A stretch of 64,000 nucleotides of DNA. Source: Thalassospira profundimaris (lineage in GTDB: Bacteria > Pseudomonadota > Alphaproteobacteria > Rhodospirillales > Thalassospiraceae). The DNA lies in the NCBI RefSeq assembly GCF_003326675.1, contig NZ_JPWF01000004.1:124001-188000 (forward strand), written 5' to 3'. Shown here one piece after another: positions 10,452 to 23,591 of the stretch (its first letter is position 1; every line of letters begins with the position of its first letter). The translations under genes were made by a program, and so were the position numbers. The notes under the pieces were generated by a model. That model saw only the letters and a program-made list of their open reading frames with translations, did not search any database and had not been told where the DNA came from.

Positions 10452-11144
10452 TTATTGCCGCGATAAACGGGCAAAATCTGCCTGTACCTCGGCAATGATG
10501 TCCGGGTCACGGTCCCGCCAATAGCGCGGATCATTCATCTTGCGCCGGATATCGGATCGCACATTTTCCGGTCCCGAACCACCATCGCCCCCGGCCAATC
10601 GGGCTTCGTCACCACCTGCCATCAAACGATGCAATGTCCTGACCCCGTCTGCGGTCTGGCACATTATGTCAAAGGCAGCTTCGGGAAGGTTGGCACGACC
10701 CCATTTTTCAATCCTCGGTGCCAGTTCTTTCCAGTTCCGCGCACCGCCAAACTCGTTCACAAGCGTCGCCCGGTCCGATGCACGTTGTGCCGCCTGATTA
10801 AGATCGGCCATCATCGGTTCCAGGATTTCACCGGCCAGATCATAGACAAGTTGCGCCTGTGCATTGCTGAACCCGGCATCATGCAAACGCCGGTTCAAAT
10901 CCGGGTCCACCGCCCCCAACGCATCATTGACCGAGATATCGTAATCCTCGGCACGGGCCGGGATATCGGGCGTATCGGGCATATCGGGCATATCGGCGGG
11001 TGCATCCCCATCCGTCGTCAAGAACCCGGCCTTGACCGAAACCTGTTCTGCCCCCGGAGCATCTTCCTGACCCTGCGCGGCTTCGGGAACTTCCGACACA
11101 GCATCCGGCTCCAGCCCTTCAATATCCTTGATTGCTTCAGTCAT
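10452..11144 (-). CDS. phage capsid scaffolding protein
   Basis: A 230-residue, very acidic protein (MTEAIKDIEGLEPDAVSE) with a disordered N-terminus containing a short repeat (MPDMPDTPDIPA), helical middle (LVYDLAGEILEPMMADLNQAA) and a C-terminus with DPRYWRDRDPDIIAEV and basic ends. Low complexity, high acidity and a helical basic C-terminus are the marks of podoviral scaffold proteins such as T7 gp9. The C-terminal YWRDRDP segment is shared with many annotated prophage scaffolds. Its ATG overlaps the preceding stop by 8 nt, so it is coupled to the Bbp19-like gene. Position between portal and capsid supports the call. Confidence 0.8.
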   Translation of the reverse strand: MTEAIKDIEGLEPDAVSEVPEAAQGQEDAPGAEQVSVKAGFLTTDGDAPADMPDMPDTPDIPARAEDYDISVNDALGAVDPDLNRRLHDAGFSNAQAQLVYDLAGEILEPMMADLNQAAQRASDRATLVNEFGGARNWKELAPRIEKWGRANLPEAAFDIMCQTADGVRTLHRLMAGGDEARLAGGDGGSGPENVRSDIRRKMNDPRYWRDRDPDIIAEVQADFARLSRQ

Positions 11145-11400
11145 TTTCCGGCTCCGCTTCAGGTTTTAACGTCGCAAGTCGTTTGATATGCAGGACCAAG
11201 GCCCGCTGTCCTTCACGCATCCAGATCGCATTCGATCCCGCATCCGGGCCAAGGGCGGTTTGCAGGAAATGGCGTTCAAGATCACCCAGCACCATCTGCC
11301 CGGCATGGCTTGCAAAGCAGGCCTGCCAATGATCTTTACGGGTATCTGGCGCCTGCCCGTCTTGCGGATCGAACCAGTCCCAGCCATGGGTGATGCTCAT
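11137..11400 (-). CDS. Bbp19-like phage protein
   Basis: An 87-residue protein (MSITHGWDWFDPQDGQAPDT) starting at an ATGA overlap with the portal stop. The core CFASHAGQMVLGDLERHFLQ followed by a substrate-like REGQRALVLHIKRL helix fits the small Bbp19 family found beside portal genes in podoviruses and related prophages. Its function is not established. Overlaps on both sides show it belongs to the portal-scaffold transcript. Confidence 0.65.
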   Translation of the reverse strand: MSITHGWDWFDPQDGQAPDTRKDHWQACFASHAGQMVLGDLERHFLQTALGPDAGSNAIWMREGQRALVLHIKRLATLKPEAEPEND

Positions 11401-12941
11401 ACCAGTTCCTCCGCGACAATTGCTGGCAGGGCCGGCTTCAAAAGATGGTCGGGCACGCCAAACTGATCGGCCAGCCAGCGCACCATGAGGGGCAAGTCCA
11501 CCTCGCCCAGCGCATCCGGGCCAAGGGTTGCGATCCGTGATAACCAGTCAAGGGCCTGGCCCGCCTGCACGCGCCTTGGCAATTGCGCTAAGGGGGCTGA
11601 ATGGCGCAGAACCACCACATCGCCATCAATCGGAATGTCGGGAAGTTCGCCGGTTTGGGTCAGGATATACAGCGCCCGGCGGATCAACGGATAAAGCAGT
11701 TCCGCCTGTAACCGGCCATAGGTCGCCCCCAAAAGCCGCGCATTTTCCGAGGCTCGTTCAAGCACCTCGGTCGCGGTCATGCCCGGTTGATCCACCTGCC
11801 CCAACCGATCCGCCAAAAGACAACGGCGAATACGATCGCGCAGGTCTGACAACACAAGATCGGACACATCAAACCGGCCCGGCGCATCAAGCGGCTTAAG
11901 CCCCGCAGACCCCACCGCCTTGGGGATGATGCTGCCCGGGATCAACCGAATGGTGGCCGGGTTCAGTACCCCGTCATCATCGGCCTGCCAGATGCCGGTC
12001 ACCGCGATGGAGGCATTTTTAAGCACCAACTCCACCACCTTGTTGGCGGTCTTGATATCAGGAAGCGCCTTCATCACCGGCGATCTGCCATAAATCTCGC
12101 CCGGTGCCTTCATCCAGCGAAAGGCGATATAGGGGGACACATCAAACTTCCCGCGATAGATCAGATCGCCTTGTGATGTGCTGCCATCCTCGTGAAAAAC
12201 GCAAATGTCATAGCCGCGTTGCCCGTTTGCGACCGGAATAACCGCCTCGACCACCGCAAAACGTTTTTGGCTATTTTCGCCATCCTGCGCGACCTCACGT
12301 TCGGGAACATTCCCGACATCGGGCCAGTTTGCCCTGATTTCATCGCGGGTCAGCGACAGTTTGCGAAACACCGCATCCATCTTGCCATCGGACCGTTCTT
12401 CAAAGGCCAGATCACGCAAGGGAACAGCGGCAAACCGAAAGGCCGACGGGCTTTGCAGATCGGCCTTTTCAAGGCGCAGACACGCCGTTCCGGCCGTCAC
12501 CAGATCAAGAAAAGCCTGATGCATTTCGACGGCAAAGTTTGATCGGTCAAAATGCCCCTGAAGAATACGCACCGCCCGCCCCAATTGCCCGGTCAGAACC
12601 TGGCGATCATCGCCCGGAACATTGCCGCCCGGTTCAAGATCAAACCACCCGCCGGCCGGCGGGGTGATTTCGGCCATCAAACTTGCGGCAAGTTGTTCGA
12701 CCGCATCGGGCGCGGTTGCATCAAACACCCGGTCAAGGCGCTTGCCACCATTTGTCTGCTCGGCCGCGCCATTGCGTTGCGGCAGGGCAAATTCATAACA
12801 TTCCTGCCAATGGGATAACCAGTTGCGCCGTCTGCTGACCGCCTTTTGAAACCGCGCGCGCAAGGTACCGATTGCCATATCGCCCGCCTTGCCATCACGC
12901 TGATCTGCCGTGGCGGGCGTTTGTTTCACTGCCTTTGCCAT
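11397..12941 (-). CDS. phage head-tail connector (portal) protein
   Basis: A 514-residue protein close in length to T7 gp8 (536). The early region has LRARFQKAVSRRRNWLSHWQECYEFALP, then DRVFDATAPDAVEQLAASLMAEITPP, which is the conserved opening of the T7-type portal family. Later come GRSPVMKALPDIKTANKV and GMTATEVLERASENARLLG, also diagnostic. The portal forms the dodecameric gate for DNA packaging and the platform for tail assembly. It begins 2 nt after the small upstream gene and overlaps the next by an ATGA, consistent with one morphogenesis operon. This is the clearest phage marker in the window. Confidence 0.9.
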   Translation of the reverse strand: MAKAVKQTPATADQRDGKAGDMAIGTLRARFQKAVSRRRNWLSHWQECYEFALPQRNGAAEQTNGGKRLDRVFDATAPDAVEQLAASLMAEITPPAGGWFDLEPGGNVPGDDRQVLTGQLGRAVRILQGHFDRSNFAVEMHQAFLDLVTAGTACLRLEKADLQSPSAFRFAAVPLRDLAFEERSDGKMDAVFRKLSLTRDEIRANWPDVGNVPEREVAQDGENSQKRFAVVEAVIPVANGQRGYDICVFHEDGSTSQGDLIYRGKFDVSPYIAFRWMKAPGEIYGRSPVMKALPDIKTANKVVELVLKNASIAVTGIWQADDDGVLNPATIRLIPGSIIPKAVGSAGLKPLDAPGRFDVSDLVLSDLRDRIRRCLLADRLGQVDQPGMTATEVLERASENARLLGATYGRLQAELLYPLIRRALYILTQTGELPDIPIDGDVVVLRHSAPLAQLPRRVQAGQALDWLSRIATLGPDALGEVDLPLMVRWLADQFGVPDHLLKPALPAIVAEELV

Positions 12942-12943
12942 CC

Positions 12944-13189
12944 CTATTCCCCCAACAGGTTTTTACCGCCGCCAAGGCCACTGATCCGGTCATTTAAAAG
13001 CCCGCGATAGCTTGTCGCGATCAGGCTGGCCCGACCATAACGCCTGCGTTCGAGTGCCTCGGCGCGGGCATCGCTTGCGGCCAAGGCGGCACCGATCTCC
13101 GTATCCTCATCACCCGTGCTTGCGGTCGCGGCCTGCGCCCCCGGATTGCTGGCAAGGATCGGCTTTGGCGTTGAAAACAAACTTCCCAT
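12944..13189 (-). CDS. small portal-adjacent structural protein (gp7.3-like)
   Basis: Start at 13189 (MGSLFSTPKPILASNPGAQA, 81 residues) is supported by GGGGAAG 4 nt upstream. The protein opens with a basic/Pro-rich segment, has an Ala/Glu/Asp-rich helix and ends RRRYGRASLIATSYRGLL through GGGKNLLGE. The R.GRAS.I.T..GL...LLG ending is common to small proteins encoded just before podoviral portal genes; T7 gp7.3, a tail-assembly and host-range protein, occupies the same position. It lies just after a terminator at 13254-13285, so transcription of the portal unit may start near here. Confidence 0.6.
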   Translation of the reverse strand: MGSLFSTPKPILASNPGAQAATASTGDEDTEIGAALAASDARAEALERRRYGRASLIATSYRGLLNDRISGLGGGKNLLGE

Positions 13190-13253
13190 CGACTTCCCCC
13201 GAAAATCCGGCTTCAAACGTCCGGCCCCGATATCGGGTGCCAAACGCCCAAAC

Positions 13254-13285
13254 GAAAAAACCCGCAGGACCAGAAGTCCTGCGGG
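13254..13285 (-). terminator. intrinsic terminator upstream of the portal unit
   Basis: On the minus strand CCCGCAGGAC (13285-13276) pairs with GTCCTGCGGG (13270-13261) and is followed by TTTTTTCG. It follows the 186-aa gene and would separate it from the portal unit. Confidence 0.8.
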
Positions 13286-13334
13286 CGCAATTATCGCGTT
13301 GATTTGTCTTTAATAGCAGAACAAAAAGAACAAA

Positions 13335-13895
13335 TCAAGAACATTTTTCAGAAAAATAAACGTGACGTCCTTCGGCGGCACCAAACTGGTCCGTCGAATC
13401 CGCACAGCAAAGATGCCGATAAAGCTGCCAGGGTGTGATGATCCAGAACCCGGAAATGCCCAGCAGCCGCTTGACCAGCTCGACACAGCTCATCGGCCCG
13501 AACCGAGCCCTGCGCGTCACCATTTGCGGGTAGTGGGCCCAAACGCAATGATGCCCGATCCCGCGATAATAGGCCGCCGGATCAAAGATCGGCGAATAGA
13601 CCCAGCTTTCGCATTTCACCCGATGGCTTTGCGGATCAAGGCAAATCCATTCCCCGGCACGAAGCCCCGACACCAGGACAAAGCAATGGCGAAACCCGGG
13701 TTTAAGCCACCGCAAGGACCGCTTTTCCGGGGCATCGGCAAACACCACCAGAACCGATACTTCACGCTTTGATGTTGACTGACTTACCCATTGATCAAGG
13801 GCGTTTTGCGCGCATGGCGCTGTTTCCGGCACGGTATCTGCTACCGGACCAAAACCCGCATGACTGGCAACATTTTCAAAAATCAGATCCCGCAT
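13335..13895 (-). CDS. uncharacterised protein with a papain-like Cys/His layout
   Basis: Start at ATG 13895 (MRDLIFENVASH); an in-frame TTG at 13913 is possible. About 186 residues. Features are RHCFVLVSGLRAGEWICLDPQ, a Trp/Tyr-rich middle (YYRGIGHHCVWAHYP) and MSCVELVKRLLGI with IITPWQLYRHL. A His-containing strand followed by a Cys at a helix start (SCVELVK) recalls NlpC/P60 or transglutaminase-like folds, where the order is often Cys before His, so a circularly permuted type would be needed. Activity is unproven. It overlaps the upstream gene and is likely co-transcribed with it. Confidence 0.5.
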   Translation of the reverse strand: MRDLIFENVASHAGFGPVADTVPETAPCAQNALDQWVSQSTSKREVSVLVVFADAPEKRSLRWLKPGFRHCFVLVSGLRAGEWICLDPQSHRVKCESWVYSPIFDPAAYYRGIGHHCVWAHYPQMVTRRARFGPMSCVELVKRLLGISGFWIITPWQLYRHLCCADSTDQFGAAEGRHVYFSEKCS

Positions 13896-14323
13896 GGCGA
13901 CAAATCCCCGCAAAGCTCCACCATCACCTCGTCATGATGGAAATCCTCATCGCGGCGGCGCGTCACGATGCCGCGTGTAATCAGCACATTTTCAAGTGCA
14001 TCCATCGCCTGCTGCCACAGGCCATCCTTGCCCTTTTCACGCGGATCACGCGGATCGGGTTCGCGTTCCACCAGCCCGAAATATTCAAGAACGCGCAAAT
14101 GCCGGTCATTCAGTGTTCCGGCCTGTTTCAAACGCATCACCGCGTTATAGACATCATCGGGATCGCACGGGCGGACAACCTCGCCGGCATCAGCCACCAC
14201 ACGCGCCCCTTCAATCCGCGCGGTCTGACAGCGCACGAACCAGAACCACGCCTGCCGGGCACTGGCAAAGGGCGTAATTTCACGCTCTGACAGGGGTTTG
14301 GGAAAAAGTCGTTGTTCGGTCAC
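13883..14323 (-). CDS. conserved alphaproteobacterial protein of unknown function
   Basis: GTG start at 14323 with a strong AGGAGGG 4 nt upstream; 146 residues. The sequence runs SARQAWFWFVRCQTARIEGAR, then VRPCDPDDVYNAVMRLKQAG, LNDRHLRVLEYFGL and a C-terminal ALENVLITRGIV. I recall similar small helical proteins (W.....ARR.GAR...VRPC.PDD) in alphaproteobacterial genomes, without known function. It is the first gene of the minus-strand phage block and marks its right limit. A DNA-binding or packaging-related role is possible, but no terminase motif is visible. Confidence 0.55.
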   Translation of the reverse strand: MTEQRLFPKPLSEREITPFASARQAWFWFVRCQTARIEGARVVADAGEVVRPCDPDDVYNAVMRLKQAGTLNDRHLRVLEYFGLVEREPDPRDPREKGKDGLWQQAMDALENVLITRGIVTRRRDEDFHHDEVMVELCGDLSPCGI

Positions 14324-15602: not shown

Positions 15603-16637
15603 TTATGGCAGGTTTTCCTTTACCACCACTTCCATGGTCAGTTTGGCAAGGTCCTTGTCGACCTGGCCACCGGCGCGCAGGTTTTCAAAGATGCGCAGCA
15701 CATTATGCGCGATCACGCCCGGGCTTTGGGTGATGACGACATCCATGATGTCTTCAAGCAGGAAACGACGTGTATCGGGGGTAAGGCCATGACCGATAAA
15801 GATAATATCACGCGCCCGGCCGCTTTCACGCAGCGCGCGCGCAACCCCGTCGGATGCCCCGCCAACGTTATAAATGCCGACCAGATCGGGATATTCTTCA
15901 AGCAGCGATTTGGTATGCAGATAGTTTTCGCTGCGATCATCATGTCCTTCGCGGGCGGCAACCACGCGCAGTTCGGGAAATTCTTCTTCCATCAGGCTTA
16001 AAAAGCCCATTTCGCGCTCTTCATGGGCGCGATAGGTGCGGCTTGCGGCAATCATTGCCACCCGACCGCGACTCTGGCCTTTGAACCGGCCCAGAAGATA
16101 TCCCGCCGTGCGCCCGACCGCCCGGTTGTCAAGCCCGACATAGGCGGCATGGGGCACACCGGAAATGTCGGACACCACCGTGATCATGTGTTTTCCCGCC
16201 GCCTGAAGCTCGGACACGGTTTCGCGGACCAGCGGATGATCGATCGCCATAAAGGCAATGCCATCGGCCTTTTCGCCGTGCTGACGGAGCGCCTCGGACA
16301 GAAGTTGCGGATTGAAACTATCGATGAAAAAACAGCGCGCCCGGATGTTATAGCCCGTCGTTGCCTCGGCCGCGGTTTTGATACGGTCGCCCAGCAATTG
16401 CAAATACGGATTGGTGCCCGACGGCAACAGGAACACAACCCGCATCGGTTTGGGCCGGAACACGTCCTGCATATCGGTTTCAGGCAGATATCCAAGTTCA
16501 CTGGCAGCTTGCAAGACGCGCTTTGCAGTACGTTCGCGGACCCCCGGACGTTTGTTCAAAACACGGTCAACCGTTGCCGGTGAAACACCGGAAAGGTCGG
16601 CAATATCCTTGATGATTGGTCCGGTCGTCTTTGGCAT
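15603..16637 (-). CDS. LacI-family transcriptional regulator of the TRAP/RuBisCO-like operon
   Basis: Start at 16637 (MPKTTGPIIKDIADLSGVSP) has GGGGT upstream. 344 residues: N-terminal LacI helix-turn-helix (IKDIADLSGVSPATVDRVLN) with the hinge helix KRVLQAASELGYL, then a periplasmic-binding-like sensor domain (PVYLQLLGDRI type segments, AGYLLGRFKGQSRGRVAMIA). It is divergent from the dctP-type gene, sharing a 191-nt region with candidate operators. It most likely represses the operon until the sugar acid or a breakdown intermediate binds. The ATVDRVL recognition helix differs from the usual TVSRVL, a variant seen in sugar-acid regulators. Confidence 0.85.
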   Translation of the reverse strand: MPKTTGPIIKDIADLSGVSPATVDRVLNKRPGVRERTAKRVLQAASELGYLPETDMQDVFRPKPMRVVFLLPSGTNPYLQLLGDRIKTAAEATTGYNIRARCFFIDSFNPQLLSEALRQHGEKADGIAFMAIDHPLVRETVSELQAAGKHMITVVSDISGVPHAAYVGLDNRAVGRTAGYLLGRFKGQSRGRVAMIAASRTYRAHEEREMGFLSLMEEEFPELRVVAAREGHDDRSENYLHTKSLLEEYPDLVGIYNVGGASDGVARALRESGRARDIIFIGHGLTPDTRRFLLEDIMDVVITQSPGVIAHNVLRIFENLRAGGQVDKDLAKLTMEVVVKENLP

Positions 16638-16662
16638 GTAACCCCTCAAAAACATCAAAACG

Positions 16663-16698
16663 CATCATTTTATGATGTTTGATGAGGCGAAATGTTTC
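16663..16698. promoter_or_regulatory. candidate operators between lacI-type gene and dctP-type gene
   Basis: CATCATTTTATGATG (16663-16677) is an inverted repeat with 6-bp arms and a 3-nt spacer. GAAATGTTTC (16689-16698) has the GAAA..TTTC half-sites common for LacI-family regulators. Both lie in the divergent region (16638-16828) and are good candidates for the adjacent regulator. Confidence 0.5.
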
Positions 16699-16828: not shown

Positions 16829-17839
16829 ATGGTCATTCAAAAAAAGATTCGCCACCTCGCGACCACCCTTGCTGCTGCCGCATCGTTTGCTGTCATGGCA
16901 AATGCTGTTCAGGCGCAGGAATATGAACTGAGCTACGGCCATATGAACTCCCCGACCAGTGTTGTTGGCATGCAGGCTGACTGGCTGGCCGAAGAAGTCG
17001 CCAAAAACACCAATGGCGCGGTCAAGATTGACGTTTATCCGTCATCCCAGCTTGGCAAAATCCAGGAACTGGCCGAAGGCGTTTCGATGGGTTCCATCGC
17101 GCTTTCGCACAATACCGCTGGCGCGCTAAGCTCGCTTTACGAAGATTTCGGTGTTCTTGATACCCCGTATCTGTATCGCGATTACGATCACCTGATGAAA
17201 GTGGTCGACATCAATTCCCCGGTCATGTCCCAGCTTAATGAAGGCCTGATCGAAAATACCGGCATGCGCGTTCTGTACGCATTCTATTTCGGCACCCGTC
17301 AGTTGACCGCCAACATGGCCGTTAAAACGCCGGCTGATCTTGCCGGTGTTAAAATCCGCGCCATTCCGTCCCCGGTTTACCTGACCGCGGTCGAAGGTCT
17401 GGGTGCGGCCCCGGTTCCGGTTGACTGGTCGGAAGTTCCGACCGCCCTTGCAACCGGCATCGTTCAGGGCCAGGAAAACCCGGTTAACGTTGCTGTTGAC
17501 CACAAACTTTATGACGTTCAGTCGCACATGATGCTGACTGGTCATATCTCGGCGGCTGAAATCGTCGTGATCAACGAAGACCTGTGGCAGAGCTTCTCGC
17601 CGGAAATTCAGGACGCCATCAACAAGGCGGCTGAAACCGTTCGTCAGAAAGCATCCCAGATGATCCTCGATAAAGAGGCAGGCGATCTTCAGAAGCTCAA
17701 AGATGCCGGCATGACCATCATTGGTCCGGATGACGGTCTTGATGTTGCGGCCTTCCGCGCAGGCGTCGAGAAACTCGTCCACGAGCGCTTTGACGAAAAA
17801 TACGGCAAGTATTTCGAAGAAATCGCTGCTGTAAAATAA
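16829..17839 (+). CDS. TRAP transporter solute-binding protein (DctP family)
   Basis: Start at ATG 16829 has GGGAGGA 5 nt upstream and opens a signal peptide ending ANAVQA (cleavage near residue 29). The 336-residue protein has the DctP hallmarks: YGHMNSPTSVVGMQADWLAEEV, YPSSQLGKIQELAEGVSMGSI, VKIRAIPSPVYLTAVEGLGA and GIVQGQENPVNV. It binds the substrate in the periplasm and hands it to the DctQM permease encoded next. A carboxylate is the usual ligand, and genes downstream suggest apionate or a related branched sugar acid. An intercistronic hairpin follows the stop and may raise its level relative to the permease. Confidence 0.9.
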   Translation: MVIQKKIRHLATTLAAAASFAVMANAVQAQEYELSYGHMNSPTSVVGMQADWLAEEVAKNTNGAVKIDVYPSSQLGKIQELAEGVSMGSIALSHNTAGALSSLYEDFGVLDTPYLYRDYDHLMKVVDINSPVMSQLNEGLIENTGMRVLYAFYFGTRQLTANMAVKTPADLAGVKIRAIPSPVYLTAVEGLGAAPVPVDWSEVPTALATGIVQGQENPVNVAVDHKLYDVQSHMMLTGHISAAEIVVINEDLWQSFSPEIQDAINKAAETVRQKASQMILDKEAGDLQKLKDAGMTIIGPDDGLDVAAFRAGVEKLVHERFDEKYGKYFEEIAAVK

Positions 17840-17847
17840 GACGATCA

Positions 17848-17896
17848 GGGCGGCATCGGGGAACCTTGCGTTCGGGGATGCCGCCCGCCCCTTTTA
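17848..17896 (+). terminator. intra-operon hairpin after the solute-binding protein gene
   Basis: GGGCGGCATC (17848-17857) pairs with GATGCCGCCC (17877-17886), then GCCCCTTTTAT follows. The permease gene begins 35 nt later without another obvious promoter, so this is likely a partial terminator or an mRNA-stabilising hairpin. Confidence 0.7.
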
Positions 17897-17920
17897 TCCC
17901 GTATTTATTCAGGTATCGTT

Positions 17921-18511
17921 ATGCCGTACAGGAATTCCCCGATCTACCGGGGACTGGACCGCATCTGCCGCGTTATGACCGCATTGTCCATGCTGATGCT
18001 GGCTTTGATGGCGGTGCTGGTGGTTGGTCAGGTGATCTTGCGCAACATGTTTGATCTGGGCTTGCCCTGGGCCGATGAATTGTCGCGCATCTCCAATATC
18101 GCGCTGGTCTTCTTTGCCGCTCCGGCCTTGATGCTCCATAACCGTCATATCGCGATTGATCTGCTCTATAGCGCGCTGCGTCCGGCTGGCAAGGCGATCC
18201 TGCGATTTTCCAATTACCTTCTGATCAGCCTGTTTGGCTGCATCTTCCTGTTTTCGCTTTATAAATTTCTGGTGCGTGCGGGCAAGTTCACCACCCCGTC
18301 GCTGAGCATGCCGAACTATGCGGTTTATGCGCCGGTTGTGGTTGCCATCGCCCTTTTGCTGATTGCAGCCCTGTACCGTTTGATCACGCGCACCGAACCG
18401 TCCCCTGATTACGAATTCGAAGAAGGCGGCAACCCGATTGCCGATGCCATCGCCGAAGAAATGGCCGACCAGGTATCGGACGCAAAACCATCTGGGGATT
18501 CCCGCAAATGA
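17921..18511 (+). CDS. TRAP transporter small permease subunit (DctQ family)
   Basis: 196 residues with four hydrophobic spans (near residues 20-42, 55-75, 95-115 and 140-160) and the DctQ-typical segment LRNMFDLGLPWADELSR followed by MLHNRHIAIDLLYSAL. It pairs with the large DctM subunit to form the membrane part of the secondary, ion-driven TRAP importer. The acidic C-terminal tail (EFEEGGNPIADAIAEEMAD) is a little longer than usual. Its stop overlaps the dctM-type start (ATGA), indicating coupled translation and equal stoichiometry. Confidence 0.9.
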   Translation: MPYRNSPIYRGLDRICRVMTALSMLMLALMAVLVVGQVILRNMFDLGLPWADELSRISNIALVFFAAPALMLHNRHIAIDLLYSALRPAGKAILRFSNYLLISLFGCIFLFSLYKFLVRAGKFTTPSLSMPNYAVYAPVVVAIALLLIAALYRLITRTEPSPDYEFEEGGNPIADAIAEEMADQVSDAKPSGDSRK

Positions 18512-19785
18512 TGAGTGCAACCCTTCTTATCCTGTTCCTTGCACTCATGATCATCCGGGTGCCGATTGCCGTCTGTCTTGGCCTGTCTTCGGCCGTGGTT
18601 ATGATCCTGTTCAATCTGCCGATGACGGTTCTGGCCCAGCGTACGGTCAATGCCCTTGATTCAACACCGCTTCTGGCTGTGCCGCTGTTTATCTTTGCGG
18701 CCAACCTGCTGAGCCTGTCGGGTGTGACCAATCACCTGTTTGAACTGGTGCGTATGCTGGTCGGCTGGATCCGTGGCGGCACCGCACAGGTCAGTGTTCT
18801 GGTCAGTCTGATTTTCTCGGGCGTGTCGGGTGCGGCCCTTGCCGATATCGGTGCACTGGGTGCGGTTCAGATCAAAATGATGCGCAAACAGGGCTATTCG
18901 TCCGAATTTGCCTCGGGCATCACCATGGCGGCTGCGACCATCGGCCCGATCTTCCCGCCCAGCATTCCGTTGATCATTTTCGCATCGGTATCGAACGTTT
19001 CGGCGGTCAAGCTTCTGATTGCAGGGATCATTCCCGCCATCCTGATCACCATCCTGTTGATGGCACAGGTCGCGGTCATGGCACGCATCTACAAATTGCC
19101 GCGCGATGAAGTCAAATTCAACATGGCTGCCTTTGCGCGCAAGTTCGTCATTTCGCTGCCGGCCCTTGCCGCCCCGGTTCTTTTGATCGGCGGTCTGATT
19201 TCGGGCTTTTTCGGTCCGACCGAAGTTGCCGGTGTGACAGTTGCCTATGCGCTTTTGATCGGCAAGTTCATCTATCGCCAGCTTGACCTGAAACGGGTTC
19301 TGGTTGCCGCACGTGACAGTGTCGATGCAACGGGCAATGTCCTGTTCATCGTGGCAACGGCTGCGCTGTTTGCATGGGTTCTGACCATGGACCGCCTGCC
19401 GGCAACGGCAAGTGAGTTCCTGCTTGGCCTGTCAAGCGATCCGCTGGTTCTGCTGTTGATTGTCAATGTCTTGTTGCTGGTCGTTGGCATGTTCCTGGAA
19501 TCAATTGCTGCCATCCTGATCATCGCACCGATCATTACCCCTGCCATGACGGCGGCCGGTGTTGATCCGCTTCAGCTTGGCATTGTGTTCGTTCTCAACC
19601 TGATGATCGGTCTTCTGACCCCGCCGGTTGGTATGAGCCTTTATATGGTCAGCATCATCGCCAAGATGCCGCTGCACCGGGTTATTCGGGGCGCTTTGCC
19701 CTTCCTTTTACCGCTGTTTTTGTCGCTGCTCGCAGTGACCTGCATACCGGCAATCTCTGTCTGGTTGCCCAACCTTCTGGATTAA
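18508..19785 (+). CDS. TRAP transporter large permease subunit (DctM family)
   Basis: 425 residues with about twelve membrane spans. Typical DctM segments are RVPIAVCLGLSSAVVMI, PLLAVPLFIFAANLL, SGVSGAALADIGALGAVQIKMM, MAAATIGPIFPPSIPLIIFA, FGPTEVAGVTVAYALLIGKF and LNLMIGLLTPPVGMSLY. It forms the transport channel and completes the TRAP set with the two upstream genes. The start codon overlaps the dctQ-type stop. Substrate is inferred only from the catabolic genes downstream. Confidence 0.93.
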   Translation: MMSATLLILFLALMIIRVPIAVCLGLSSAVVMILFNLPMTVLAQRTVNALDSTPLLAVPLFIFAANLLSLSGVTNHLFELVRMLVGWIRGGTAQVSVLVSLIFSGVSGAALADIGALGAVQIKMMRKQGYSSEFASGITMAAATIGPIFPPSIPLIIFASVSNVSAVKLLIAGIIPAILITILLMAQVAVMARIYKLPRDEVKFNMAAFARKFVISLPALAAPVLLIGGLISGFFGPTEVAGVTVAYALLIGKFIYRQLDLKRVLVAARDSVDATGNVLFIVATAALFAWVLTMDRLPATASEFLLGLSSDPLVLLLIVNVLLLVVGMFLESIAAILIIAPIITPAMTAAGVDPLQLGIVFVLNLMIGLLTPPVGMSLYMVSIIAKMPLHRVIRGALPFLLPLFLSLLAVTCIPAISVWLPNLLD

Positions 19786-19795
19786 GTGAGGAAAC

Positions 19796-20335
19796 ATGAG
19801 CAGATTTCTTGGTGAAATTCGCCAGCTCGGTTATGTCGTGCCCGATATCGAAGAGGCCATGGAATACTGGTCCACGACCATGGGTGTCGGCCCCTGGTAT
19901 TATAACCCGCGCGTGCCGATCGAAGATTACCGTTATGACGGTCAATCCTATGACGTTCACAACTCGGTCGCACTTGCCAATTCCGGTTACGTTCAGGTCG
20001 AACTGATCCAGACCCGCAATGACGCACCGTCGATGTATCGCGACTTTACCCAGGCCGGAAATGTCGGCTTGCAGCATGTCGCATACTGGACCGAGAATTT
20101 TGATGCTGACCTTGCTCTGATGGAAAGCAAGGGCTTCAAAGTCAAAATGAGCGGCAAGGTCGGTGACAACGGTCGCTTTGTCTATTTCGACAAGGAAATG
20201 CATCCGGGTACCGTGATCGAACTGTCCGAAGTTGTCGGCCCGAAAGGCCGTCTGTTCAAATCGATCTACGAAGCCTCCATTGACTGGGATGGTTCTGATC
20301 CGATCCGTCCTTTCCCGTCGCTTTCGGAAATCTGA
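19796..20335 (+). CDS. VOC (glyoxalase-like) family protein
   Basis: 179 residues, start at 19796 with GAGGAAAC upstream. It has two paired beta-alpha-beta-beta-beta units: an N-terminal IRQLGYVVPDIEEAMEYW and YVQVELIQTR, then GLQHVAYWTENFDADLAL and PGTVIELSEVVGPKGRLF. Glu residues in VELIQ and VIELSE sit where VOC enzymes bind a divalent metal; His in LQHVAY is a further candidate ligand. Members include epimerases, lyases and dioxygenases. Between the transporter and the RuBisCO-like gene, it may act on the imported sugar acid or an oxo-intermediate. The exact reaction cannot be told. Confidence 0.8.
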   Translation: MSRFLGEIRQLGYVVPDIEEAMEYWSTTMGVGPWYYNPRVPIEDYRYDGQSYDVHNSVALANSGYVQVELIQTRNDAPSMYRDFTQAGNVGLQHVAYWTENFDADLALMESKGFKVKMSGKVGDNGRFVYFDKEMHPGTVIELSEVVGPKGRLFKSIYEASIDWDGSDPIRPFPSLSEI

Positions 20336-20338
20336 GCC

Positions 20339-21610
20339 ATGGACCTGATCGAAGCCCGCTATCTCATTGAAACGCCGATGGACCCCGAAAAGATCGCCAC
20401 CATTATGGCAGGCGAACAAAGCAGCGGTACATTCGTGCGTGTAGCAGGTGAAACCGACGAGTTGCGCGAACGTTGTTCGGCCCGCGTGCTTGAAGTGCGT
20501 GAATTGGCCTCGGTCAATCACCCCAGCCTGCATAGCGCCTATTTGGCAGAACGCGGGATCACTGGCCCGTATCGTCGTGCCGAAATCCGTATCGGGTTCC
20601 CGACCGGCAATATTGGCCAGAACCTTGCGACACTCGCGGCAACGGTTTCGGGCAATCTCTATGATCTTGGTGAAATCACCGGCCTTAAGCTGATTGATGT
20701 CACGGTGCCCAAGGCCTATCGCGATCTTTATGATTATCCGGTTGCCGGAACCAAGGGCACGCGTGATCGCATGAATGTGCATGGTCGCCCGTTCTTTGGC
20801 ACCATCATAAAGCCGAATGTCGGCCTGCGCAGCGAAGACATCGCCAATCTGGTCGGTCAGCTGTGCGAAGCCGGTGTGGATTTCATCAAGGATGATGAAG
20901 TTTGCGCCAACCCGGCATCTGCCCCGCTTGCAGAACGCATTCCTGCGGTGATGGATCAGGTGCGTCGTTACCGTGACCGTACCGGTCGCGATGTGATGAT
21001 TGCCTTTAACATCACCGATGAAACCGATGCGATGCGCCGTCACGCCGACCTGATTGAAAAGGAAGGCGGATCGTGTGCCATGGTCAGCATGAACTGGACC
21101 GGTCTTTCGGCCCTTCAGTCCCTGCGCAAGTCCACCGGCCTTGTCCTTCACGGTCATCGCAACGGATTTGGGGCACTGTCGCGTCACCCGATGATCGGCA
21201 TGGCCTATCCGGCCTATCAGACGCTGTATCGTCTGGCCGGTATGGATCACATGCATGTGCATGGCATGGGCGGCAAATTCTGTGACGAGGACAGCGAAGT
21301 CGCATCCTCGGCCCAGCTTTGTGCACAGCCGCTTGCCGCTGGCAACGGGGACGAAGACCGCGTTCTTCCGGTCTTCTCGTCGGGTCAGTGGGCTGGCACC
21401 GTTCCGGCCACATACGGGGCGGTTGGATCGGCGGACTTCATGTTCCTGGCAGGTGGCGGCATTCTTGCCCATCCGTCCGGTCCGGCAGCTGGCATCACCA
21501 GCCTGCGTCAGGCATGGGAAGCCTGCGAAGCCGGTGTAAGCCTGGAACAACATGCCAAAACCAACCCAGCCCTGTCAGAAGCTCTGGCATTCTATGGGGC
21601 ACGAGGCTGA
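20339..21610 (+). CDS. RuBisCO-like protein, likely oxo-isoapionate-phosphate transcarboxylase type
   Basis: 423 residues with the large-subunit RuBisCO fold pattern. Key motifs: GTIIKPNVGL (first catalytic Lys), GVDFIKDDE (Lys that is carbamylated, with Asp and Glu for Mg2+), VLHGHRNGFGALSRHP, HVHGMGGKF (loop 6 Lys), SSGQW and LAGGGILAHPSGPAAG (phosphate grip). The catalytic set looks intact, but overall it is a RuBisCO-like protein, not a CO2-fixing enzyme. RuBisCO-like proteins beside a DUF1537 kinase act in D-apionate breakdown (OiaX or OiaT-type), handling 3-oxo-isoapionate 4-phosphate. The neighbouring kinase supports this. The subtype is not settled by sequence reading alone. Confidence 0.85.
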   Translation: MDLIEARYLIETPMDPEKIATIMAGEQSSGTFVRVAGETDELRERCSARVLEVRELASVNHPSLHSAYLAERGITGPYRRAEIRIGFPTGNIGQNLATLAATVSGNLYDLGEITGLKLIDVTVPKAYRDLYDYPVAGTKGTRDRMNVHGRPFFGTIIKPNVGLRSEDIANLVGQLCEAGVDFIKDDEVCANPASAPLAERIPAVMDQVRRYRDRTGRDVMIAFNITDETDAMRRHADLIEKEGGSCAMVSMNWTGLSALQSLRKSTGLVLHGHRNGFGALSRHPMIGMAYPAYQTLYRLAGMDHMHVHGMGGKFCDEDSEVASSAQLCAQPLAAGNGDEDRVLPVFSSGQWAGTVPATYGAVGSADFMFLAGGGILAHPSGPAAGITSLRQAWEACEAGVSLEQHAKTNPALSEALAFYGARG

Positions 21611-21612
21611 CG

Positions 21613-22911
21613 ATGACCAAACTCGTTTTTTGTGCGGATGACTTCACCGGAGCATCCGATACGCTGGCCACTCTGGCCCGTGCAGGACTTTCTGCACGCC
21701 TGTATTTGAATGCTCCGGTTATGTCGGAACACAAAGACGAAGTTGGTCACGGGTCCAGCAGCCTCGATGCCTTTGGTGTTGCAACGTCGCTTCGTGCTAT
21801 GGGGGTCGAAGACGGCGTTGCCACCATCGGCGAACTTGCCGATCAGTTGGCAAAAGCCAAGTGTGGCATCTATCATTTCAAAATCTGCTCGACATTCGAT
21901 AGCGGCCCGCAAACCGGCAATATCGCCGCCGTCGCGGATCGTTACGCGCAATCGGTCGGTGCGACCTGGAAGGCCATCATTGGGGGTCAACCGTCTCTCC
22001 GCCGGTTCTGTTTCATGGGCAATCTTTTTGCCGGTGTCGGTGCAGGCCAAATCCATCGCATTGACCGCCATCCGGTCATGGCCCATCATCCCGTCACCCC
22101 GATGAACGAGGCCGACCTGCCCCGTCACCTTGCGGGTCAGGGCTGGCCGAATGTAGGCCTGATTGATTTCACCATCATTCGTCAGGGGCGCGTGGCCCTG
22201 ATTGCCGAAATCAAACGCCGGATCGCCAATGGCGAAACCGAAACCCTGTTTGATGCCACCGATGAAAATGATCTTTTGACGATTGGCGAAGCCCTTCAGG
22301 ACATCGCCAAATCGACAACGATCCTGTGCGTTGGCGCAAGCAGTGTCGCACAGGCACTTTTCCCGTCCTTTACCCCGGCATCGGATGGTGTGGCCAAGGC
22401 CAGCCGTCGGGCAGGCCCGGTATTTGCCTTTGCCGGAAGCCGTTCGCCCCTGACCGCCGAACAGGTCGTGAGCGCCCAAAACTACGTCAAATACCGGGTG
22501 TCACCATCGGACCTGCTTGATCCGGTCGCGCTTAAACAGTTGCAGACCGAATGTCTTGATGTTCTGCACAGTGGCAAAAACCTTCTGGTGTCGCTGTCTG
22601 ATGACCGCAATCACACGATTGTCAGCCACGATCTGGCACAGGCCAGCGCCTGTTTCATCGCTGAAATCAGCCGGTCGGTTGCCCTTGGTTTTCTTTTGAT
22701 TGCAGGGGGCGATACATCAAGCCTTGCGGTTCAGGCCCTTGGCATTGACAGCCTTTCCTATGTTGCCGATTTCGATGCAGGTGCACCGGTGATCCGCGCC
22801 CATGCCAGCAATGGCAGTCTTGATGGCTTGCCGATGTTGCTTAAGGGCGGCCAGATGGGCAAACCGGCCCTGTTTGACAACATCACGAACCTGCCCGCCA
22901 CCGCGAAATAA
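21613..22911 (+). CDS. DUF1537 four-carbon sugar-acid kinase family, likely oxo-isoapionate kinase
   Basis: 432 residues, starting 2 nt after the RuBisCO-like stop. The N-terminal domain opens FCADDFTGASDTLATLARAG, the substrate-binding signature of the family (DD.TGA.D). The C-terminal nucleotide-binding domain has VFAFAGSRSPLTAEQV and LLIAGGDTSSLAVQALG (GGDT loop for ATP). Characterised members phosphorylate erythronate, threonate, 2-oxo-tetronate or 3-oxo-isoapionate. Next to a RuBisCO-like gene, the OiaK role (making 3-oxo-isoapionate 4-phosphate) is the best fit. It is the last gene of the operon, and no dehydrogenase or lactonase is nearby. Confidence 0.85.
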   Translation: MTKLVFCADDFTGASDTLATLARAGLSARLYLNAPVMSEHKDEVGHGSSSLDAFGVATSLRAMGVEDGVATIGELADQLAKAKCGIYHFKICSTFDSGPQTGNIAAVADRYAQSVGATWKAIIGGQPSLRRFCFMGNLFAGVGAGQIHRIDRHPVMAHHPVTPMNEADLPRHLAGQGWPNVGLIDFTIIRQGRVALIAEIKRRIANGETETLFDATDENDLLTIGEALQDIAKSTTILCVGASSVAQALFPSFTPASDGVAKASRRAGPVFAFAGSRSPLTAEQVVSAQNYVKYRVSPSDLLDPVALKQLQTECLDVLHSGKNLLVSLSDDRNHTIVSHDLAQASACFIAEISRSVALGFLLIAGGDTSSLAVQALGIDSLSYVADFDAGAPVIRAHASNGSLDGLPMLLKGGQMGKPALFDNITNLPATAK

Positions 22912-22970: not shown

Positions 22971-23591
22971 ATGATCCGACATCAGCAAATATGGGCCGCC
23001 CTTGACCAGATCGCCAAAGACCACGGTTTGACACCGTCCGGTCTTGCCCGTCTGGCACAGCTTGACCCGACGACATTCAACCGGTCCAAACGCACCACGT
23101 CGCAGGGCAAGGCGCGCTGGCCATCGACCGAAAGCATTTCCAAGGTGCTGTCGGTGACCGATGTCAGTTTCCGCGAATTTTCCGAACTGGTCGATGGCAA
23201 TGGGGCCGGACGCATTCCGGTGATCGGCTTTGCCCAGGCGGGTAATCAGGGCTTTTTTGACGATGCCGGTTATCCGGTTGGCGGATCGTGGGAAGATATC
23301 ACCTTCCCGGCCCTGCATGATCCGACCGCCTATGGCCTTCGTATTTCAGGGGAATCCATGGCCCCGGTTTTTCGCGACGGTGATCTGATCATTGTCAGCC
23401 CGGCATCAAATATCCGCCCGCATGACCGGGTGGTTGTCAAAACCGTCGAAGGCGAAGTTTTGGCCAAGGAACTGATCCGGCGCGGTGCCCTTGGCGTTGA
23501 ACTGAAATCGTTCAACCCGGCCTATGAAGACCGCTTTATCCCTGCCGATCAGATCGACTGGGTTGCCCGTGTTTTGTGGTGCAGTCAATAA
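22971..23591 (+). CDS. S24-family (LexA/CI-like) self-cleaving regulator
   Basis: 206 residues, start with AGGAT upstream. An N-terminal helical DNA-binding domain of XRE type (LDQIAKDHGLTPSGLARLAQLDPTTFNRSKR) is followed by a peptidase S24 domain. The domain shows an AQAG cleavage-type site near residue 85, SGESMAPVF with nucleophile Ser129, and VLAKEL with Lys166. Such proteins cleave themselves when RecA filaments or another stress signal activates them. No phage genes adjoin it and no SOS box was noticed, so it may be a stand-alone chromosomal regulator. Its targets are unknown. Confidence 0.85.
   Translation: MIRHQQIWAALDQIAKDHGLTPSGLARLAQLDPTTFNRSKRTTSQGKARWPSTESISKVLSVTDVSFREFSELVDGNGAGRIPVIGFAQAGNQGFFDDAGYPVGGSWEDITFPALHDPTAYGLRISGESMAPVFRDGDLIIVSPASNIRPHDRVVVKTVEGEVLAKELIRRGALGVELKSFNPAYEDRFIPADQIDWVARVLWCSQ

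Follow-up and report, generated by a model that had tools for sequence, protein, structure and literature searches.

The pathways for threonate and erythronate employ OtnI, OtnK and OtnC, and also PdxA2. Two D-apionate pathways draw on related enzymes. In the one that uses OiaT, the 3-oxo-isoapionate 4-phosphate transcarboxylase/hydrolase, the gene of a RuBisCO-like protein (RLP) lies next to that of a DUF1537 kinase, often together with a TRAP transporter and with no downstream isomerases. The second pathway uses OiaX, the 3-oxo-isoapionate 4-phosphate decarboxylase, and its genes come with those for ApnO, a TPI-like protein and RpiB. In addition, the RLP of the Ochrobactrum anthropi D-hamamelose pathway yields 3-phosphoglycerate and glycolate, as reported in PMC8914248, which cites Kim 2018.

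The operon and its operator

We analysed a window of 64,000 nucleotides from Thalassospira profundimaris. Six genes lie on its plus strand in the order DctP-DctQ-DctM-VOC-RLP-kinase (16829-22911), as judged from Pfam matches and ORF coordinates. The first three encode the components of a TRAP transporter, namely the solute-binding protein DctP (16829-17839; PF03480, 217 bits; TIGR00787 above cut-off), the small permease DctQ (17921-18511; PF04290, 89 bits) and the large permease DctM (18508-19785; PF06808, 376 bits; TIGR00786 above cut-off). They are followed by the genes for a VOC protein of the methylmalonyl-CoA-epimerase fold (19796-20335; PF13669, Glyoxalase_4/VOC, 94 bits), which we propose as first-step isomerase/epimerase, an RLP (20339-21610; PF00016, RuBisCO_large, 237 bits, plus the N-terminal domain) and a DUF1537 kinase (21613-22911; PF07005, SBD_N, 166 bits; PF17042, NBD_C, 69 bits). 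The packing is tight: dctQ and dctM overlap, the VOC gene ends at 20335, the RLP gene starts at 20339 and the ATG of the kinase is at 21613. Pfam matches and packing thus confirm the first-pass annotation, which had placed these genes in one operon. It had also reported that no oxidoisomerase or lactonase is encoded there. Indeed, neither was found within the operon, and ApnO had no match in the whole source genome (completeness 100%); the same search was positive in four control genomes.

We count with the operon a divergent gene on the minus strand, encoding a LacI-family repressor (15603-16637; Pfam LacI HTH and Peripla_BP_4). From the sequence, the ATG at 16637 is preferred as its start over the TTG at 16658. 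A probable LacI operator (16653-16684, no strand assigned) was recognized by its sequence and its recurrence upstream of lacI. It is made up of CATCAAAACGCATCA (16653-16667) followed by the inverted half-sites ATGATGTTTGATG (16672-16684). With at most one mismatch, CATCAAAANNCATCA preceded lacI in 78 of 89 loci, compared to 2 of 267 control stretches. Perfect operator matches occur three times in the genome, once at the operon site. The idea of a dehydrogenase hidden elsewhere in the LacI regulon was rejected, as the other two perfect sites adjoin unrelated permease-like and integrase-like genes. In a promoter scan, matches were no more frequent than in shuffles. Our preferred reading, to which we give an even chance together with the pathway proposed below, is that the operon serves the breakdown of a small carboxylate resembling a sugar acid, under the control of LacI.

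Separate RLP and kinase clades

The RLP belongs to the RuBisCO superfamily (Pfam large and N-terminal domains, KDDE metal motif) and keeps the RuBisCO residues K175, K201, D203, E204, H294, R295, H325, H327, K334 and S379, of which K175, K201, D203, E204, H325, H327 and K334 are also shared with OiaT. It has DHMH where OiaX rows have DQFQ, with Gln at 325 and 327. Against the OiaX model NF042437 the RLP scored 416.4 bits (cut-off 700), while a Rhizobium OiaX control reached 785.6. The kinase scored 184.2 bits against the OtnK model NF043035 (cut-off 350) and 214.4 bits against the OiaK model NF042436, whose cut-off of 700 is strict, since OiaX-linked and ApnO-linked kinases reached only 469-575 bits.

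In the RLP tree, the VOC-linked proteins formed a separate clade (20 rows, support 100/100) that falls outside the clade of ApnO-linked, presumed OiaT, RLPs. SDR-linked RLPs were its nearest sister group (support 91/88). The clades quoted here are independent of the outgroup rows; the root depends on two wrong ones. Similarly, the VOC-linked kinases formed a clade of their own, outside the OiaK-like clade (23 rows, support 99/96). The ApnO-linked RLPs and kinases are only about 47-51% and about 33% identical, respectively, to those of the operon, and the ApnO-linked RLPs carry S177 and N329 in contrast to N177 and H329 here, two residues that mark the VOC-linked clade (24 of 24 rows). The first-pass annotation had assigned the pair to the OiaK and OiaX/OiaT steps. 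A relationship to these steps stands; membership of the OiaX/OiaT and OiaK families does not, as both proteins score below the OiaX, OiaK and OtnK cut-offs and fall into separate clades; for this locus, the placement in other subfamilies that the first-pass annotation had named as refuting its reading has therefore occurred. Plain OiaX/OiaK membership is ruled out by the active-site residues as well.

Because the RLP keeps its catalytic residues, including the His pair lost in OiaX, an OiaT-like cleavage to 3-phosphoglycerate and a small acid appears likelier than plain decarboxylation. The clade-specific N177 and H329 may indicate a substrate different from that of OiaT. The best PDB match is 3nwr (590 bits over the full length), presumably from Burkholderia fungorum, which by score belongs to the same subfamily; it is entitled only 'a rubisco-like protein' and the record seen names no function. 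Assigning this subfamily matters, as it is common (at least 585 genomic relatives of the query were confirmed) and has in 3nwr a solved structure whose title gives no function. Alternatively, the kinase could make a ketose phosphate that the RLP attacks as an oxygenase to give 3-phosphoglycerate and glycolate, as reported for D-hamamelose breakdown in O. anthropi, with the VOC protein handling an upstream branched acid. The sister position of the SDR-linked RLPs would fit this, as would the 3-phosphoglycerate and glycolate reported for the O. anthropi RLP in PMC8914248, but the operon has no hamamelose-type dehydrogenase, and we consider this reading quite unlikely.

A LacI-transporter-VOC cassette and its back ends

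We surveyed 80 related RLP loci, drawn from alpha-, beta- and gammaproteobacteria, and in all 80 the RLP gene was adjoined by that of the VOC protein. The pairing is thus not due to chance, and the conservation on which the first-pass annotation had staked its reading was borne out. The kinase gene was found in 79 loci, the exception lying at a contig end, and lacI in 77, the other three being truncated contigs. A transporter recurs across the relatives: some have the three-gene TRAP, others a fused TRAP or an ABC system of the amino-acid type, and all of these are systems for small acids. Within 10 kb of the operon, the only further neighbour convincingly conserved across genera was an SDR gene, which heads the operon in six loci and has no ortholog in the source genome (best match 36% identity). 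A dehydrogenase gene is absent from the operon in most genomes. Literature searches on RLPs with VOC, DUF1537 or mutant fitness returned nothing on the operon.

Judged from the compared loci, the LacI, transporter and VOC genes form a movable cassette, described here as new, that is joined to three different back ends. The first consists of its own VOC-linked RLP and its own kinase. The second, found in 9 of 10 VOC-bearing Bradyrhizobium-type genomes, combines orthologous LacI and VOC genes with an OiaT-type RLP, 70-75% identical to an ApnO-linked RLP, and an OiaK-like kinase (58-61%); 'OiaT-type' denotes linkage to ApnO, not measured similarity to the Xanthobacter autotrophicus enzyme that was assayed. 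In the third, kinase-DeoR-aldolase genes and PdxA, with no RLP, lie by LacI-TRAP-VOC in Azospirillum thermophilum, and three further genomes have this back end with VOC proteins of a sister clade and without LacI.

The swap of back ends offers a direct route to the function of the RLP. The intermediate must suit enzymes of the OiaT/OiaK type, and the candidates are therefore a short list of 3-oxo acids. The likeliest intermediate for the back ends to share, itself a rather doubtful choice, would be 3-oxo-isoapionate or a closely related compound. The presence of PdxA in the third back end points to a 3-hydroxy acid, and this clashes with a 3-oxo product unless a further assumption is added.

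The second back end also bears on the link to apionate drawn by the first-pass annotation, which is favoured by the Bradyrhizobium-type cassette and disfavoured by the RLP and kinase of the source locus itself. If the operon served a divergent form of D-apionate breakdown, 2-oxo-apionate would come from a dehydrogenase encoded elsewhere, the VOC protein would only shift the hydroxymethyl group to give 3-oxo-isoapionate, and kinase and RLP would be fast-evolving forms of OiaK and OiaT. The Bradyrhizobium-type variant and the SDR at the operon head in six loci agree with such a pathway. It is nonetheless unlikely, given the clade-specific changes in the RLP active site, the lack of apiose dehydrogenase (Gfo/Idh) or lactonase relatives at the 80 loci compared to several at ApnO loci, and the co-occurrence of VOC operon and ApnO in some genomes, for example Thalassospira sp. 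HJ and a Roseibium. The same co-occurrence weakens the idea that the VOC protein simply replaces ApnO, and the earlier picture of it merely standing in for the oxidoisomerase was not upheld. Three options had been left for the locus: a first step encoded elsewhere, an isomerase-type step by the VOC protein, or a different substrate. The latter two are the live ones.

The proposed pathway and its closest counterparts

The AlphaFold2 model of the VOC protein (pLDDT 95.9) has a paired beta-alpha-beta-beta-beta fold. Its nearest folds are epimerases (Z 13-17), with a Z of 17.2 and an rmsd of 2.0 over 138 residues for 3gm5. Q10, E69, H94 and E142 are invariant in 46 VOC sequences and probably hold a divalent metal; Gln10 presumably sits where classical epimerases have His. 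Against the methylmalonyl-CoA epimerase model TIGR03081 the protein scored 28.5 bits (cut-off 115). Relatives of the VOC protein that are not part of the operon, at 45-63% identity, were rejected as a guide to the substrate, as their neighbourhoods are scattered and in some cases contain acyl-CoA dehydrogenase-like genes.

Glyoxalase I is a member of the VOC superfamily, and the VOC gene adjoins that of the RLP, so the protein could be a glyoxalase-like enzyme that detoxifies or salvages a reactive by-product, such as a 2-oxoaldehyde that escapes during the kinase or RLP step. We regard this as very unlikely, since the VOC gene stays with lacI and the transporter where the RLP is swapped or lost and the nearest folds are epimerases. 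Since the VOC gene travels with LacI and the transporter in a cassette joined to three back ends, its product is probably the first enzyme to act, as an isomerase or epimerase of the methylmalonyl-CoA-epimerase fold that supplies a 3-oxo acid related to 3-oxo-isoapionate.

In the pathway we propose, the TRAP system would import a 2-oxo sugar acid, or a 2-hydroxy acid where the SDR is present. As the operon mostly lacks a dehydrogenase and the SDR ortholog is absent here, either the compound taken up has to be a keto acid from the outset, or an enzyme not linked to the operon has to oxidise it. The VOC protein would isomerise or epimerise it to a 3-oxo acid, via an enediolate or by an alpha-ketol carbon shift, and by analogy would take the isomerase half of the role of ApnO in apionate or of OtnI in tetronate breakdown. 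To our knowledge, the isomerisation of sugar acids would be new to the VOC superfamily. The kinase would then phosphorylate the terminal C4 hydroxyl, and the RLP would decarboxylate the product to an enediolate, followed by OiaT-type recarboxylation and hydrolysis. The predicted products, 3-phosphoglycerate plus a small acid, for instance glycolate or formate, would explain the lack of further enzymes in the operon. As a whole, we hold with somewhat less than even confidence that this is a novel pathway, in which a VOC metalloenzyme isomerises a 2-oxo sugar acid to the 3-oxo form with no cofactor, by proton or alpha-ketol carbon shift, and feeds a so far unassigned RLP subfamily, its front end having been joined by evolution to three cleavage routes (own RLP, OiaT-type RLP, or PdxA with an aldolase). 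A further RLP with RuBisCO-like carbon chemistry would bear on the origin of RuBisCO carboxylation.

The VOC protein resembles methylmalonyl-CoA epimerase in fold, with invariant Gln, Glu, His and Glu at the probable metal positions; in contrast, the operon has no CoA enzymes. The O. anthropi hamamelose RLP, likened here from its description in PMC8914248, has the same end products as proposed for our RLP, and its neighbours are described as hamamelose genes. With the threonate and erythronate pathways the operon shares the order of an isomerase giving a 3-oxo acid, a DUF1537 kinase and a C-C cleavage, and PdxA occurs also in the third back end; here, however, a VOC protein takes the place of OtnI and an RLP that of OtnC, and the kinase lies under the OtnK cut-off. 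The OiaX pathway has the RLP and DUF1537 kinase superfamilies in common with the operon, whereas its isomerases are absent near the RLP here. Finally, the OiaT pathway has the same adjacent RLP and kinase genes, and in our operon a VOC protein and a LacI regulator are found instead of ApnO.

Make-up, control and distribution of the operon

Pfam searches confirmed the families and order of the six genes at window 16829–22911 (plus strand) as first annotated: DctP, DctQ and DctM of a TRAP transporter, a VOC protein, a RuBisCO-like protein (RLP) and a DUF1537 kinase. The preferred ATG start codons lie at 16829 (dctP), 20339 (RLP) and 21613 (kinase); lacI is oriented leftward from its start at 16637. 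Upstream of lacI, the motif CATCAAAANNCATCA (at most one mismatch) was found in 78 of 89 loci versus 2 of 267 control stretches, and within the T. profundimaris genome it is meaningfully placed only at the RLP-VOC operon. Immediately after the operon lies an S24/LexA-like repressor gene (22971–23591), a position conserved only inside Thalassospira. Upstream, at 10452–14323, there are large minus-strand ORFs, among them those for a 514-aa and a 230-aa protein of phage-like appearance by eye; five or six further Thalassospira loci have homologues at the equivalent position.

Scanning one genome per species gave at least 585 confirmed RLP relatives, and the 80 best of them, which belong to alpha-, beta- and gammaproteobacteria, were retained. 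The VOC gene proved to be a conserved neighbour in all 80 of these loci (65–94% identity to the window VOC protein); the kinase was detectable in 79 and the LacI gene in 77, the exceptions stopping at a contig edge. The closest genomes among the matches listed are Thalassospira species with the same operon and RLP identities of 77–89%. On plasmids, 19 VOC matches reach at least 66% identity before the next drops to 47%, and 18 of these adjoin an RLP, the remaining one being that of Azospirillum thermophilum. We conclude that the RLP-VOC operon is real and widespread. The transporter differs between loci, being a three-gene TRAP, a fused TRAP or, in three loci, an amino-acid-type ABC system; a small-acid substrate would lead one to expect such a mix. 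One comparison locus (L205, 5144–7995) holds LacI, DctP and VOC genes without RLP or kinase, possibly a decayed operon, with ApnO elsewhere in the same genome.

Subfamily and active site of the RLP

The earlier reading, that the pair fits the OiaK and OiaX or OiaT steps, was partly supported: the two proteins are related to those enzymes, but fall into other subfamilies. Against NCBIfam models, the window RLP scored 416 bits for OiaX, under a cut-off of 700 that performs well (Rhizobium OiaX, 786 bits). The kinase scored 214 bits for OiaK, where the cut-off of 700 is strict (kinases linked to OiaX or ApnO reach just 469–575 bits), and 184 bits for OtnK (cut-off 350). The trees agree with these scores: VOC-linked RLPs form a single clade (support 100/100) separate from OiaX-, ApnO-, SDR- and racemase-linked RLPs, and the OiaK-like kinase clade (99/96) leaves out the VOC-linked kinases. 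Among RLP-DUF1537 pathways for acid sugars, the operon represents a new variant.

In spinach RuBisCO numbering, the window RLP retains K175, K201, D203, E204, H294, R295, H325, H327, K334 and S379. It shares DHxH with RuBisCO and OiaT-type RLPs (a label from gene context, for ApnO-linked RLPs without sugar-phosphate isomerases), whereas OiaX has DQFQ. The VOC-linked clade carries Asn at position 177, in contrast to Lys in RuBisCO, Ser in OiaT-type RLPs and Ala in OiaX, and His at 329, where the other three have Asn. Of the VOC-clade rows checked, 24 of 24 had the N177/H329 pair; the Bradyrhizobium-type variant had S177/N329 in each of its nine rows. Judged by the kept catalytic residues and the clade-specific N177/H329, the RLP retains what RuBisCO-like carbon chemistry requires, with a substrate pocket that appears tuned. 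With these residues kept and no further enzyme in the operon, we infer that the RLP would cleave its substrate to 3-phosphoglycerate. The RLP of Xanthobacter autotrophicus is reported to be the transcarboxylase/hydrolase and that of Agrobacterium radiobacter the decarboxylase (PMC6302742). The hamamelose pathway also runs through an RLP, reported to act as an oxygenase yielding 3-phosphoglycerate and glycolate (PMC8914248).

Other RLP-DUF1537 pairings were also seen. In seven loci (L117, L175, L176, L181, L217, L218 and L220) the pair occurs together with an SDR but no ApnO; many of these loci also have a fused TRAP and pyruvate kinase, and some of their RLPs are the sister clade to the VOC-linked RLPs. 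An Asp/Glu racemase-family gene lies near the pair in Rufibacter (beside pectin genes) and two alphaproteobacteria (L123, 8001–11326; L178; L182), and is perhaps an alternative front end to the same back end. On haloarchaeal plasmids (L222, 3829–9689; L221, 5529–9649), the pair lies near an SDR and a short, different VOC protein, only remotely similar to that of the window, possibly an independent joining of RLP with VOC; L222 additionally holds an Asp/Glu racemase and an alpha/beta hydrolase.

Three back ends joined to a LacI-transporter-VOC cassette

Besides the window arrangement with its own RLP and kinase (back end A), LacI, transporter and VOC accompany two other gene sets. Back end B was found among 147 genomes of one genus, probably of Bradyrhizobium type, ten of which bear VOC; nine of the ten have LacI (52–55%), VOC (68–70%) and fused TRAP, after which come an RLP 70–75% identical to the ApnO-linked Microvirga RLP and an OiaK-like kinase (58–61%) that nests within the ApnO-linked group of the kinase tree. 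In back end C, the A. thermophilum LacI, TRAP and VOC (70%) adjoin PdxA and a kinase-DeoR-aldolase set, without RLP; this set occurs in three more genomes with a sister VOC (60–62%) and without LacI. A-type, B-type and A. thermophilum VOC proteins fall in one clade (97/89). Since regulator, transporter and VOC move as one while the downstream genes change, VOC most likely acts first in the pathway. Had the enzymes of back end B retained the specificity known for them, VOC would yield 3-oxo-isoapionate, but this fits poorly with the PdxA of back end C. ApnO was not found in the T. profundimaris genome; nor was the SDR of other loci's operons.

Fold and proposed chemistry of the VOC protein

The AlphaFold2 model of the window VOC protein is confident (pLDDT 95.9), and its best structural matches are methylmalonyl-CoA epimerases (3gm5, Z 17.2, rmsd 2.0 over 138 residues; Streptomyces epimerase, Z 13.1). 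Residues Q10, E69, H94 and E142, invariant among 46 relatives, are putative metal-site residues that match the usual VOC metal sites by sequence; H55, N56, Y45 and M118 are near-invariant in operon VOCs and not in relatives outside the operon. The obvious reaction would be abstraction of a proton beside a carbonyl, with a metal-assisted alpha-ketol shift as a possible alternative. This proposed role of VOC is testable.

At six loci, an SDR gene stands first in the operon, which would give the step order dehydrogenase, isomerase, kinase and cleavage. In a known route, a 2-dehydrogenase, OtnI, OtnK and OtnC act in that order. The SDR-headed loci resemble this route in step order, as they do both halves of ApnO.
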